Shown here one piece after another: positions 49,997 to 54,296 of a stretch of DNA of 64,000 nucleotides. The DNA comes from Streptomonospora litoralis (GTDB lineage: Bacteria > Actinomycetota > Actinomycetes > Streptosporangiales > Streptosporangiaceae). Made by a program: the position numbers and the translations under genes. Under the pieces are notes generated by a model. The model had not been told where the DNA came from. It saw only the letters and a list, made by a program, of their open reading frames with translations, and did not search any database. Positions within the stretch are counted from its first letter, which is position 1, and each line of letters begins with the position of its first letter. Location of the stretch: NCBI RefSeq assembly GCF_004323735.1, contig NZ_CP036455.1, positions 2,847,101-2,911,100 of the forward strand, in the 5' to 3' direction.

Positions 49997-50872
49997 TCAG
50001 GAGCTCAGCAGTTCCCGCAGCGCCCCCACCACCTGCGTCGGCGCCTCCTCGGCCATGAAGTGGCCGCAGTCGACGGTGGAGTGGCGCAGGTCGCCTGCCC
50101 AGGCCCGCCACAGCGCGGCGGCGTCGTACCCCAGCGCCGCCCCCCAGTCCTGCTGCAGCACCGCCACCGGCATGGCCAGCCGGTTGCCCGCCCGCCGGTC
50201 GGCCTCGTCGTGCTCGACGTCGATTCCGGCCGAGGCCCGGTAGTCGGCGACGATCGAGGCCACCGCCGCGCGCGACTTGGCCAGGTAGGTCTCGCGCACC
50301 TCGGGCGGGATCGCCGCCGGGTCCCGCCCCCACACCTGGAGGAAGTGGCCGAAGAACGCATCGGGTGCCGCCCCGATCAGCTCCTCGGGCAGCCCGGGTG
50401 GCTGGGCCATCAGGTAGAGGTGGAACCCCACGGCCCCGGCCCGGCCGTGCAGCGCCTCCCACATGTCAAGCGTGGGCAGCACGTCCAGCGCCGCCAGACG
50501 GGTGACCGCCTGCGGATGGTCCAGCCCGGCGCGCACCGCCACCAGGGCGCCGCGGTCGTGGCCGGCCAGCGCGAAGCGGTCGTGGCCCAGCGCGCGGGCC
50601 AGCGCGACGACGTCGGCGGCCATGGTGCGCTTGGCGTAGGCGCCGCCGTCCTCGGCGGGCTTGTCGCTGTCGCCGTAGCCGCGCAGGTCGGGGCAGATGA
50701 CGGTGTGGTCGGCGGCCAGGTCGGCGGCCACGTGCCGCCACATCAGGTGGGTCTGGGGGAAGCCGTGCAGCAGCACGACGGCCGGGCCGGACCCGCCCAC
50801 GGCCGTATTCAGCCGCACGCCTTCGGCCACGCTCACCTGCCGGTAGTCGAATCCGCTGATTCCGGGTTGCAC
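49997..50872 (-). CDS. Haloacetate-dehalogenase-like alpha/beta hydrolase
   Basis: 291 residues from GTG 50872, which has GCGAGGAG just upstream. Fold features: VVLLHGFPQTHLMWRHVA (about 32-49), CPDLRGYGDSDKP (about 60-72), nucleophile elbow LAGHDRGAL with Asp (about 103) rather than Ser, the Asp region after AGIDVEHDEADRR, and His in DCGHFMAEEAP (about 270). Nucleophilic Asp with the RGYGDSDKP/GFPQTHLMW pattern is typical of fluoroacetate/haloacetate dehalogenases and related epoxide hydrolases. Dehalogenation is a family-based prediction. Divergent from the SARP gene. Confidence 0.85.
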   Translation of the reverse strand: MQPGISGFDYRQVSVAEGVRLNTAVGGSGPAVVLLHGFPQTHLMWRHVAADLAADHTVICPDLRGYGDSDKPAEDGGAYAKRTMAADVVALARALGHDRFALAGHDRGALVAVRAGLDHPQAVTRLAALDVLPTLDMWEALHGRAGAVGFHLYLMAQPPGLPEELIGAAPDAFFGHFLQVWGRDPAAIPPEVRETYLAKSRAAVASIVADYRASAGIDVEHDEADRRAGNRLAMPVAVLQQDWGAALGYDAAALWRAWAGDLRHSTVDCGHFMAEEAPTQVVGALRELLSS

Positions 50873-50925
50873 AGTGGCTCCTCGCACTCGTCGTCTCTGG
50901 CTCGCCCGAGCCTGCCCGGCGGCGG

Positions 50926-50975
50926 TGAGCAGCCGATCAGCAGATGATCAGCAAACCGCGGTCCGCGGCTAGATT
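50926..50975 (+). promoter_or_regulatory. SARP-type binding repeats and leaderless promoter
   Basis: TGAGCAG (50926-50932), TCAGCAG (50937-50943) and TCAGCAA (50948-50954) are three heptamers at exactly 11-bp intervals, the geometry bound by SARP proteins. TAGATT (50970-50975) is the -10 box, 6 nt before the ATG of the SARP gene itself. Autoregulation is likely; the repeats could also act on the divergent dehalogenase gene. Confidence 0.65.
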
Positions 50976-50981
50976 GGGGGC

Positions 50982-53900
50982 ATGACCAGCCAGGCGACAC
51001 CGGTGTCGCTGCGCGTGCTGGGCCCGCTGGAGGCCCGCGGCGCCGACGGACCGCTCGCGCTCAAGGGGCCGCGCCAGCGCGCGCTGCTGGCGCGGCTGCT
51101 CGTGGCGGGCGGGCGCGTAGTCTCCCTCGACGGGCTCGTCGCCGCCCTCTGGCCCGAGTGGCCCCCCGAGGGCGCCGTCGGCGCGATCCGCACCTTCGTC
51201 GCCGACCTGCGCCGCGCGTTGGAGCCCGACCGGCCGCCGCGGGGCCCCGCCCGGCTGCTGGTGACCGCTGCCCCGGGCTATGCGCTGCGCATGGACCCCG
51301 ATGCCCTGGACGCCCGCCGTTTCGAAACAGCCGCGGGTGCCGGGGCCGACCTGCTGGGCGCCGGGCGCAGCCGGGCGGCCCTGGACTCGCTGGAGCAGGC
51401 GCTGGCGCTGTGGCGCGGCCCGGCCTACGCCGAGTTCGCCGAGGAATCGTGGGCCCGCGGCGAGGCCGACCGGTTGGAGCAGTTGCGCCTGCTGGCCATG
51501 GAGCGGCGCGCCCAGGCGCTGATCGGCCTGGACCGGGCGGGTGAGGCCGCCGCGGAACTGCATGAGCACGTCCGAGCCCATCCGCTGCGGGAGAACGCCT
51601 GGCACACCCTGGCCCTGGCGCTGTACCGGGCGGGCCGCCAAGGCGACGCGCTGGAGGCCCTGCGGCGGGCGCGCCACCGCCTCGCCGAGGACCTGGGCCT
51701 GGACCCCGGGGCGCGGCTGCGGGCGCTGGAGGCCGACATCCTCGCCCAGGCACCCGGGCTCGGCGCCGATGCACCCCCTCCGGCCGGGCCCGTGCGCGGT
51801 CCGGCGCCGCTGCGGCAACCGTCCGCCGCGACGAGCGGGGCCCCGGCGCGGCCCTTCGTCGGCCGCACCGCCGAACTGCACGCGCTGGAGGACGCCGCCG
51901 CGGCGGCAGCCGAGGGTTCCCGGGTGGTGCCGGTGCTGATCGCCGGCGGCGCCGGGCAGGGCAAGACCGCCCTGGCCCGCGCCCTGTTCCGGCGCCTGGC
52001 CGAGGGCGGATGGGCCACCGCCTGGGGCGACAGCCCCGAGCACGACGGTGCGCCCGCGGTGTGGGCCGTCGAACGCATCGCCGCCGACCTCGGTGCCGCC
52101 GGCGCCCCGCCCGCGACAGCGCGATCCCACCCGCGGCGTGCGGAGGGCTCCGCCGCTGAACCGACCCCCGCGGCCCGGTTCAGCGCCCAGCGCGAGGGCG
52201 TCGCGCTGGTGGCGGCGGCCGCCGAACATGGCCCTGTCGTGCTGGTGGCCGATGACCTGCACCGCGCCGCCGAGGAGACCCTGGACCTGCTCACCGCCGT
52301 GGCGGCCGAGCCGCTGGAGCGCCCGGTGCTGCTGGTGGGCGCCTACCGCGGCGACGCGATCGGCCCGGCCCTGGCCGCTGCGCTCGCCCGGCTGGCCCGC
52401 AGGGAACCCGTCCGGTTGTACCTGGACGGGTTGTCCGAGGAAGCCGTCGGCGAGCTGGTGGCCTGCGTCGCCGGGCGCGCGGCCGACGCCGCGACCGTCG
52501 GCGCGATCCGCCGCCGCAGCGGCGGCAACCCCTTCTACGTGCGCGAACTCGCCCGCGTCTTCGCCGAGGAGGGCGCATCGGCCCTCGACGCGGTCCCGGC
52601 GGGGGTGGGCGACGTGGTCCGCCACCGCCTGGCCGGGTTGGACGACGCGACCCGCCGCCTGCTGCGCCAGGCCGCCGTGATCGGCAGCGAGGTGGAGACC
52701 GACGTGCTCGCAGCCGTCGCCGGCGGCGGCGAGGCCGGGCTTGAGGCTGTGGAGGCCGCGGTCGAGGCCGGGGTCCTCACCCAGCCCGATCCGCGCCGAC
52801 TGCTTTTCGCTCACGCTCTGCTGCGCGACGCCGTCTACGCGGGTGTTTCGGGCGCGCGGCGGGCGCACTGGCACACGGCGGCCGCGGAGGCGATCCAGCG
52901 GCTGCGCCCCGACGACGCCGCGTCGCTGGCCCACCACTTCGCCCGCTCGGCCGCCCCCGGCGCTGATGCCCGCGCCGCCCACTACGGCCGCGTCGCCGCG
53001 CAGCGGGCCGAGGAACGCTTCGCCCCCCACGAGGCCGCCCGGCTGTGGGAGGAGACCGTGGCCGCCTACGGCCGCGCCGGCATCGGCGACGAGCGGGCCC
53101 GGTTGGAGGCGGTCATGGGCCTGGTGCGGGCGCTGGCGGTGACCGGGCGCCTGGCGGATGCGCGCAACCGCCGCGCCGAGGCCGTCGCCGACGCCGAGCG
53201 ATTGGGCGATCCCGAACTCACCGCCCGCATCGTGACGGCCTTCGACGTGCCGGCCGTGTGGCCCCGAAACGACGACGAGGACCTCTCCGGGCGCATCGCC
53301 GCCACCTGCGAACGCACCCTGGCGGCCCTGCCCGCCCACCATGAGCAGCTGCGCGCCCGCCTGCTCGCCGCCCTGGCCCTGGAGCTGCGCGGCGACACCG
53401 GGCCGCGCGGTGCGCGCGCCGCCCGCGAGGCCGAGCAGACCGCGCGGCGCCTGGCCGATCCCGCGCTATTGGCCCAAGCCCTCAACGCAGGCTTCATGCA
53501 GTCCTTCCACCGCGCCGGCGGGGCGCGCGGCCGTGCGGCCGTGGGCGCCGAACTCGTCGAGCTCGCCGCGGCCGAGGGACTGGTCGCCTACGAGGTACTG
53601 GGGCGCCTCGTGCTGCTTCAGGCCCACGCCGCCATGGCCGACTTCGCCGAGGCCGACCGCCACGCCGCCGCTGCCCAGCGCCTCGGCGAGCGCCACGAGA
53701 TCGGGCACGTGGAGGTGTTCATCCGCTGGTACGGCGCGCTGCGCCAAGCCGTGTCGGGCAGCTTCGAGGAGGCCGAGGCCGCCTGCCGGGCCGCGGGCGC
53801 ACGGCTGGCCGGCACCGGCATGCCGGGGTTGCAGGAGGGGATCGTGCCGCTGGCCCTGCTGTGCCTGCGGCTGCAGACCGGGCGGCCCGCCGCGGCCGAG

Positions 53901-54296
53901 GAGGGCGCCGACTGGGGCCCCTACGCCCCCTGGGCCGCCGCGCTGATCCGCGCCGAGGGTTCCAGCCGAGCCGATGTGCCCCCACAGGCGCCGGTCGGCC
54001 TGCTCGACGAGGCGCTGACCTGCCTGCGCGCGCACGCCGCCATGGCCGCCGGCGACCGGGAGGCGATGCGGCACTGTTACGAGCACCTGCTGCCCGCCGC
54101 CGACGAACTGGCCGGGGCGGGCAGCGGGCTGCTCACTCTGGGACCGGTCGCCCACTGCCTCGGCGACCTGGCCGATGCCCTGGGCCGCCGCGGGGATGCG
54201 GCCGAGCACTACCGCCACGCCGCGCGTGTGGCCGACCGCGCCCGGGCGCCGCACTGGAGCGACGCCGCGCAGGCGGCGCTGGCGCGAACGGCATGA
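50982..54296 (+). CDS. SARP/AfsR-type transcriptional regulator with AAA ATPase and TPR-like region
   Basis: 1104 residues, ATG, probably leaderless. Residues 8-105 are an OmpR-like wHTH (LRVLGPLEARGADGPLALKG, RALLARLLVAGGRVVS, GYALRMDPDALDARRFE), 106-255 the bacterial transcriptional activation domain (BTAD), 290-600 an NTPase with Walker A GGAGQGKTAL (about 323-332) and Walker B VVLVADDLH (about 420), then a long helical TPR-like tail to 1104. No LuxR HTH at the end. Such proteins switch on secondary metabolism or stress genes; here no biosynthetic cluster is adjacent. The 11-bp repeats upstream suggest it controls itself. Confidence 0.88.
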   Translation: MTSQATPVSLRVLGPLEARGADGPLALKGPRQRALLARLLVAGGRVVSLDGLVAALWPEWPPEGAVGAIRTFVADLRRALEPDRPPRGPARLLVTAAPGYALRMDPDALDARRFETAAGAGADLLGAGRSRAALDSLEQALALWRGPAYAEFAEESWARGEADRLEQLRLLAMERRAQALIGLDRAGEAAAELHEHVRAHPLRENAWHTLALALYRAGRQGDALEALRRARHRLAEDLGLDPGARLRALEADILAQAPGLGADAPPPAGPVRGPAPLRQPSAATSGAPARPFVGRTAELHALEDAAAAAAEGSRVVPVLIAGGAGQGKTALARALFRRLAEGGWATAWGDSPEHDGAPAVWAVERIAADLGAAGAPPATARSHPRRAEGSAAEPTPAARFSAQREGVALVAAAAEHGPVVLVADDLHRAAEETLDLLTAVAAEPLERPVLLVGAYRGDAIGPALAAALARLARREPVRLYLDGLSEEAVGELVACVAGRAADAATVGAIRRRSGGNPFYVRELARVFAEEGASALDAVPAGVGDVVRHRLAGLDDATRRLLRQAAVIGSEVETDVLAAVAGGGEAGLEAVEAAVEAGVLTQPDPRRLLFAHALLRDAVYAGVSGARRAHWHTAAAEAIQRLRPDDAASLAHHFARSAAPGADARAAHYGRVAAQRAEERFAPHEAARLWEETVAAYGRAGIGDERARLEAVMGLVRALAVTGRLADARNRRAEAVADAERLGDPELTARIVTAFDVPAVWPRNDDEDLSGRIAATCERTLAALPAHHEQLRARLLAALALELRGDTGPRGARAAREAEQTARRLADPALLAQALNAGFMQSFHRAGGARGRAAVGAELVELAAAEGLVAYEVLGRLVLLQAHAAMADFAEADRHAAAAQRLGERHEIGHVEVFIRWYGALRQAVSGSFEEAEAACRAAGARLAGTGMPGLQEGIVPLALLCLRLQTGRPAAAEEGADWGPYAPWAAALIRAEGSSRADVPPQAPVGLLDEALTCLRAHAAMAAGDREAMRHCYEHLLPAADELAGAGSGLLTLGPVAHCLGDLADALGRRGDAAEHYRHAARVADRARAPHWSDAAQAALARTA

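Follow-up and report, generated by a model that had tools for sequence, protein, structure and literature searches.

The locus

The window analysed here, a 64,000-nucleotide stretch of the Streptomonospora litoralis genome, holds a gene for a large SARP and, divergent from it, a gene for an alpha/beta hydrolase. The features of the pair and of the region between the two genes are collected in Table 1.

Table 1 Genes and predicted regulatory features of the SARP–hydrolase locus (positions are those of the window; FPA, first-pass annotation)
Feature	Position	Strand	Remark
Alpha/beta hydrolase gene, divergent from SARP	49997..50872	-	start most likely GTG 50872
Probable ribosome-binding site of hydrolase, GAGGAG	50878..50883	-	from sequence
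Putative -10-like box of hydrolase promoter, CAGGCT	50909..50914	-	exactly 9 bp past proximal repeat
Predicted operator repeat 1, GCTCACC, nearest hydrolase promoter	50924..50930	-	overlaps FPA TGAGCAG, 50926-50932
Predicted operator repeat 2, GCTGATC	50935..50941	-	overlaps FPA TCAGCAG, 50937-50943
Predicted operator repeat 3, distal, GCTGATC	50946..50952	-	overlaps FPA TCAGCAA, 50948-50954
-10 box of SARP gene, TAGATT, leaderless arrangement	50970..50975	+	6 nt before ATG 50982
Large SARP gene: Trans_reg_C, BTAD, AAA_16 ATPase (NOD), C-terminal region	50982..54296	+	

A first-pass annotation, made from the sequence alone, had called the plus-strand gene a SARP, and the domain matches bear this out. 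Trans_reg_C is matched at residues 30-102 (26.8 against a cut-off of 26.2) and BTAD at residues 109-254 (137 against 22.1), giving the N-terminal OmpR-type DNA-binding domain followed by BTAD that marks the SARP family, and a match to AAA_16 is also present. The C-terminal region is taken to be TPR-like; a Pfam TPR match was sought there and none was found. The TAGATT box and its distance from the SARP start are as the annotation described them, and the leaderless transcript that it proposed is probable, TAxxxT lying 6-7 nt before the presumed start in all 11 SARP genes of the ATPase-bearing group that were viewed by eye (the window, L036-L041 and L176-L179).

The start of the hydrolase gene is placed 15 nt inside that of the ORF list (50887), the products of its relatives beginning just before a GFDY motif. 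Near whole-length PDB matches were obtained with 4bat (E=2e-67), 9c9f (E=1.6e-62) and 3r3u (E=3.2e-60), and the nearest structures are the probable epoxide hydrolase 4bat and fluoroacetate dehalogenases. The residues of the alpha/beta-hydrolase triad (the Asp of HDRG, another Asp and a late His) all align in the window protein, which has HDRGAL and HL where three distinct matched proteins have HDRGAR and HW. We take the halide- and carboxylate-binding residues of the dehalogenases to be the second Arg in HDRGAR and, in HW, the Trp. The window enzyme has Leu at both places, and it scores 69.6 bits against the curated haloalkane dehalogenase cut-off of 241. Given the two Leu residues, 'dehalogenase' denotes a family resemblance and not a function: the earlier description of the divergent gene as dehalogenase-like is right as to the alpha/beta hydrolase family but does not extend to dehalogenase activity.

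The repeats in the window

Three heptamers, TGAGCAG, TCAGCAG and TCAGCAA, had been noted upstream of the SARP gene, and they lie exactly where they were placed, at a spacing of exactly 11 bp. A degenerate form of the triple matches once in the 5.8-Mb genome, the reversed control giving 0; the real window has one occurrence, and 60 windows simulated at order 2 have none on either strand. The three heptamers are real and above chance. Sites and period were thus read correctly, but the frame was 2 bp off the register that fits both the relatives and AfsR. Read on the minus strand, that is, in the direction of the hydrolase gene, the pattern is a GYTSATC-type repeat, four nucleotides, a second GYTSATC-type repeat, 9 bp and a box of the CAGGCT form.

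Between the repeats and TAGATT lies an inverted repeat, CCGCGG-T-CCGCGG, at 50956-50968; none was seen by eye in the relatives L036 and L037.

Relatives of the gene pair

The SARP served as query for a scan of a genome collection, and of the 174 loci the best 80 were taken. In six of these (L036-L041) the same hydrolase is encoded divergently next door, with the SARP 51-63% identical over the best segment and the hydrolase 71-81% identical. Beside the other 74 no hydrolase was found within the sequence taken, a few of these loci having little sequence upstream and one, L108, a weak hydrolase match 4 kb off. A further 61 evenly drawn genomes of the family were searched with the C-terminal half of the SARP, and 14 places were taken, mostly those of higher identity. 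The hydrolase directly adjoins the SARP in 11 of them and lies 2.7 kb off in one (L178, genome G060). The remaining two were dropped: L181 (G052, C48) has a SARP relative that lacks its N-terminal part, and no hydrolase, the pair with operator of that genome being on C58 (L192), and L187 (G008) lies at a contig end, its pair being L276. Genomes G056, G050 and G030 were examined separately from the 14 places. Of 47 rows, nine repeated the 90-bp context of another and were discarded, so that 38 remained.

The pair is present in Streptomonospora, Nocardiopsis, Amycolatopsis, Acrocarpospora and Micromonospora. Four of the six genomes of the genus (G002-G005) lack the SARP orthologue, their best matches being at most 41% identical, and the same four lack the hydrolase orthologue (the best match is 54% in G002 and 43% in G005, and G003 and G004 give none at E<=1e-40). 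With both missing from the same four genomes, it seems that the two genes are gained or lost together. In 10 loci the surroundings of the pair were searched at E<=1e-5 for eight other window genes, none of which recurred; several kb on both sides were available in six of these loci, with little beyond the pair in L176, L177, L179 and L253. The earlier remark that there is no adjacent biosynthetic cluster agrees with this as far as the window genes go, with the reservation that four of the 10 loci hold little but the pair. On this comparison the SARP and the hydrolase look like a two-gene unit. A published pairing of a SARP, AfsR or BTAD protein with a hydrolase or dehalogenase was sought in the open-licence literature and none was found, although slash spellings may escape such a search.

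A conserved predicted operator registered to the hydrolase promoter

Alignment of the upstream regions of orthologues, the check that the first-pass annotation had named for its heptamers, was made on 25 hydrolase-linked loci found by protein similarity, and the repeats and their 11-bp period are kept in all 25. The usual repeat among the relatives is GCTCATC or GCTGATC. The repeat pair scores 10 of 10 in 23 loci and 9 of 10 in the other two (L188, p=0.033; L270, p=0.040), and 11 loci have a third repeat, with a core score of 4 or 5 of 5. Loci L253 and L268 were counted among the 25, their genes having been found by protein search; the genome of L268 (G132) had come to attention through a chance pattern match elsewhere in it. 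A single ancestral pair probably gave rise to the linked loci, and the 25 are thus not independent of each other.

The operator was placed by the repeats alone before the gaps to any box were counted. An xAxxxT box follows the proximal repeat at a gap of 9 bp in the hydrolase direction in 25/25 loci (18/18 in an earlier set), and any other gap, from 0 to 39 within the sequence taken, occurs in at most two of the 25. In 18 loci the repeats and box hold 1.40 bits per column against 0.33 in the flanks, the flank figure being too low because the flanks were not realigned across indels. This spacing is no by-product of a short intergenic region, since the distances on either side of it vary: the operator lies 2-285 bp from the SARP start (18 loci, extrapolated from the alignment), and the hydrolase box lies 25-105 bp from the GFDY codon.

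The 11-bp direct repeats, with the 3' repeat 9 bp from the box, have the form of a SARP-family site, given by PMC10936776 as direct repeats 11 or 22 bp apart with the 3' repeat 8 bp from the -10. The same paper places the 22-bp afs box of afsS at -40 to -19, in a promoter whose -10, CACTGT, is poor. The contacts listed for afsS suggest -24 and -35 for the conserved A of GYTSA, in which case CAGGCT falls at -12 to -7. The hydrolase -10 boxes are likewise poor, and we infer their identity, the transcription starts and the direction of regulation from this arrangement. In the SARP direction the same repeat-to-box geometry was looked for and is absent, the gap from operator to TAxxxT being scattered across the loci. 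Its presence on the hydrolase side and absence on the SARP side suggest activation of the hydrolase. As far as alignment can tell, the repeats are a conserved SARP-type operator in register with the hydrolase promoter and not with the TAGATT box of the SARP. The earlier idea of a SARP-type repeat operator is upheld in this form; it had allowed for an effect on the divergent gene, and that side now becomes the main target, while its stress on the SARP promoter loses its footing in the scattered spacing.

Operator, hydrolase and SARP occur together

The repeats-plus-box pattern was found in 37 of 250 genomes of the family, at one site in each, with 0 sites for the reversed control. All but one of the sites are at an orthologue of the hydrolase, the exception (L218) being a chance match: 29 of the 30 pattern loci returned have the hydrolase, as do the other seven (the window, G010, G033 and four that were fetched). 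So strict a pattern misses true sites, since L269, L270 and L274-L276 have the repeats and the gap of 9.

Among the 61 evenly drawn genomes there are 24 hydrolase matches, 20 of which have an adjoining SARP relative (one, in G060, 2.7 kb off). The repeats and box are present at all 20, some of them cut by contig ends, and a full repeat pair at none of the four hydrolases without a nearby SARP. Counted together with relatives of lower identity, hydrolases that lack a nearby SARP number 15, and no 10-of-10 pair was found at any of them.

One of the 15, a hydrolase paralogue (L277, on contig C9 of G030), has a 9-of-10 pair with xAxxxT at a gap of 9 (p=0.08), a near-miss that is either chance or a degenerate operator.

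Parted genes and loss of the ATPase domain

The first-pass annotation saw the repeats as an autoregulatory switch whose main site of action was the promoter of the SARP itself. In the window they do lie just 15 bp upstream of TAGATT. Against this, the spacing to the SARP promoter is not kept and the repeats are oriented as the hydrolase promoter is. Two lineages in which the genes have parted speak to the point: in G060, whose SARP has the ATPase, and G181, whose SARP lacks it, the SARP and hydrolase genes are about 2.7 and 2.8 kb apart, respectively. The repeat pair lies beside the hydrolase in both, and a scan of the fetched stretch gave no pair at either SARP start. With the operator staying with the hydrolase in both lineages, autoregulation as the main function is unsupported, and we regard it as highly improbable.

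A number of hydrolase-linked SARPs lack the whole ATPase domain and retain BTAD and the C-terminal region (loci L180, L182-L186, L188, L189, L249, L250, L252, L254, L255 and L268); in two complete examples, of 654 and 657 residues (L182 and L252), BTAD runs straight into the C-terminal region. A midpoint-rooted tree was built from 52 sequences, each represented by its N-terminal 262 residues. It sets the hydrolase-linked SARPs apart from the others, and in it 23 ATPase-less SARPs, some judged on partial genes, form one clade (support 0.935), which appears on these sequences to be nested among ATPase-bearing SARPs. L211, which scored as having no ATPase, is cut by a contig end and was left out of these calls. 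The subclade keeps both the SARP–hydrolase module and the operator. On the SARP side of the operator, a TAxxxT stands only 3-4 bp away at five of the eight ATPase-less loci found by protein similarity, which makes occlusion plausible: a bound SARP may also repress its own gene there. Autoregulation would be at most secondary, with secondary autorepression possible where the operator abuts the SARP promoter.

At L255 (G239, C4) the operator and hydrolase look intact, and the SARP gene appears to switch frame near residue 100, where matches in two frames overlap, reflecting either a sequencing error or a decaying gene.

Comparison with known SARP systems

The N-terminal part of the window SARP best matches EmbR and AfsR. 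EmbR (PDB 2fez) is the top match of the N-terminal 258 residues (E=3.7e-42); it differs in having an FHA domain in place of the ATPase and C-terminal region, as described in PMC10936776.

AfsR at afsS in Streptomyces coelicolor (PDB 8hvr, 8jke and 8k60), as set out in the same paper, matches the window operator in its geometry. In both systems the SARP carries a nucleotide-binding domain as well as a C-terminal region, and both have 11-bp direct repeats over the -35 region with the 3' repeat near a poor -10. They differ in that the window repeats are GYTSATC-type, with no afs box, and in that the target is one divergent hydrolase. Orthology with AfsR can be set aside, the window SARP scoring 137.3 bits against an NCBIfam AfsR equivalog cut-off of 1430. 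The equivalents of AfsR W74, P79, T88 and R94 are kept in the window SARP; at the R92 position the hydrolase-linked SARPs have D, A or G (mostly Ala), and at the Q48 position the window SARP has Arg. With R92 and Q48 not kept, the base contacts differ from those of AfsR.

Two simple accounts of these differences were tried and rejected. Replacement of R92 by Asp does not explain the change from T to C in the repeat, Asp occurring in few members and Ala in most, and a clean link between Arg or Gln at the R87 position and C or G at repeat position 4 is broken by the window, L183, L188 and L211.

The SARP-LAL proteins PimR, SanG and PolR resemble the window SARP in that a SARP is joined to a large ATP-binding half, and their sites, according to PMC5930380, are heptamers with 4-bp spacers, three of them in the main operator of PimR. 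The heptamer given there is CGGCAAG, and the repeats here are of the GYTSATC type. PimR targets a pathway regulator in an antifungal cluster, and the main operator of PimR lies clear of the -35 box.

In the 74 SARP relatives without a hydrolase (L042-L115), an 11-bp repeat of TTGGA type lies before the regulator's own gene, with a pair scoring 9 or 10 of 10 in 48 of them (the motif was chosen after viewing the sequences, and no shuffles were run). Of these 48, 16 have TAxxxT 9-10 bp further on and 10 have it 20-21 bp further on. The arrangement has the look of autoactivation, the second spacing being longer by about one turn.

The recognition helix separates the two groups, reading [RQ]TFVxxLR(R) in the hydrolase-linked clade against Q[AS][YH][VI][SA][NH]LR in other relatives. 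This bears on whether another SARP or OmpR-type regulator of the cell might use the operator. The genome has eight further SARP matches, seven of them over the SARP domain, and an 11-bp period is common to such regulators; yet the operator and the neighbouring SARP co-occur, and the clade has its own helix, [RQ]TFVxxLRR, where relatives, many with TTGGA-type repeats, have one like Q[AS]YVSNLRR. Use by another regulator is highly improbable on these grounds. Least probable of all is a PhoP operator (PHO box): although PHO boxes share the 11-bp period (direct repeats of seven conserved and four less conserved nucleotides, GTTCACC in S. coelicolor, with PhoP and AfsR overlapping at afsS, according to PMC4415409) and GCTCACC is one base from GTTCACC, the usual repeat of the relatives, GCTCATC or GCTGATC, is not the GTTCACC N4 form, and the pattern occurs once per genome in 37 genomes, at the hydrolase in 36, and accompanies the SARP.

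Interpretation

We put at roughly 85% the probability that the locus is a two-gene module in which the large SARP activates the one neighbouring hydrolase through a predicted operator of AfsR type. This reading draws on the conserved repeats, the fixed spacing to the box, the co-occurrence with the SARP and the operator's staying with the hydrolase when the genes are parted; that the neighbouring SARP is the protein that binds, and that it activates rather than represses, is what we infer from these comparisons. The SARP would be made from its own leaderless promoter (TAGATT), and two to three adjacent protomers would occupy the GYTSATC-type repeats, in an array that overlaps the -35 region and stops 9 bp short of the poor CAGGCT box. 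Bound in this way, the SARP would recruit RNA polymerase in the manner of AfsR at afsS. The ATPase (NOD) and the C-terminal region presumably receive a signal, and the output would be a single enzyme.

What that signal might be can be approached through a more speculative idea, which we think rather unlikely: the locus could be a sense-and-destroy module, in which the C-terminal part of the SARP detects a small molecule, such as an antibiotic or a signal of ester, lactone or epoxide type, and induces the hydrolase, which in turn removes the inducer. If so, the ATPase-less subclade would represent a SARP gated by its C-terminal region alone, without the ATP switch of AfsR.

SARPs are best known for activating antibiotic clusters. 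The SARP described here appears to be coupled to one hydrolase across several actinobacterial genera, and the operator is regular enough for its target, direction and spacing to be deduced from the sequence. With two genes, the pair would make a minimal system for studying which signal a large SARP responds to, and the loci in which the ATPase domain has been kept or lost form a natural series that may serve to test whether the ATP switch is needed.
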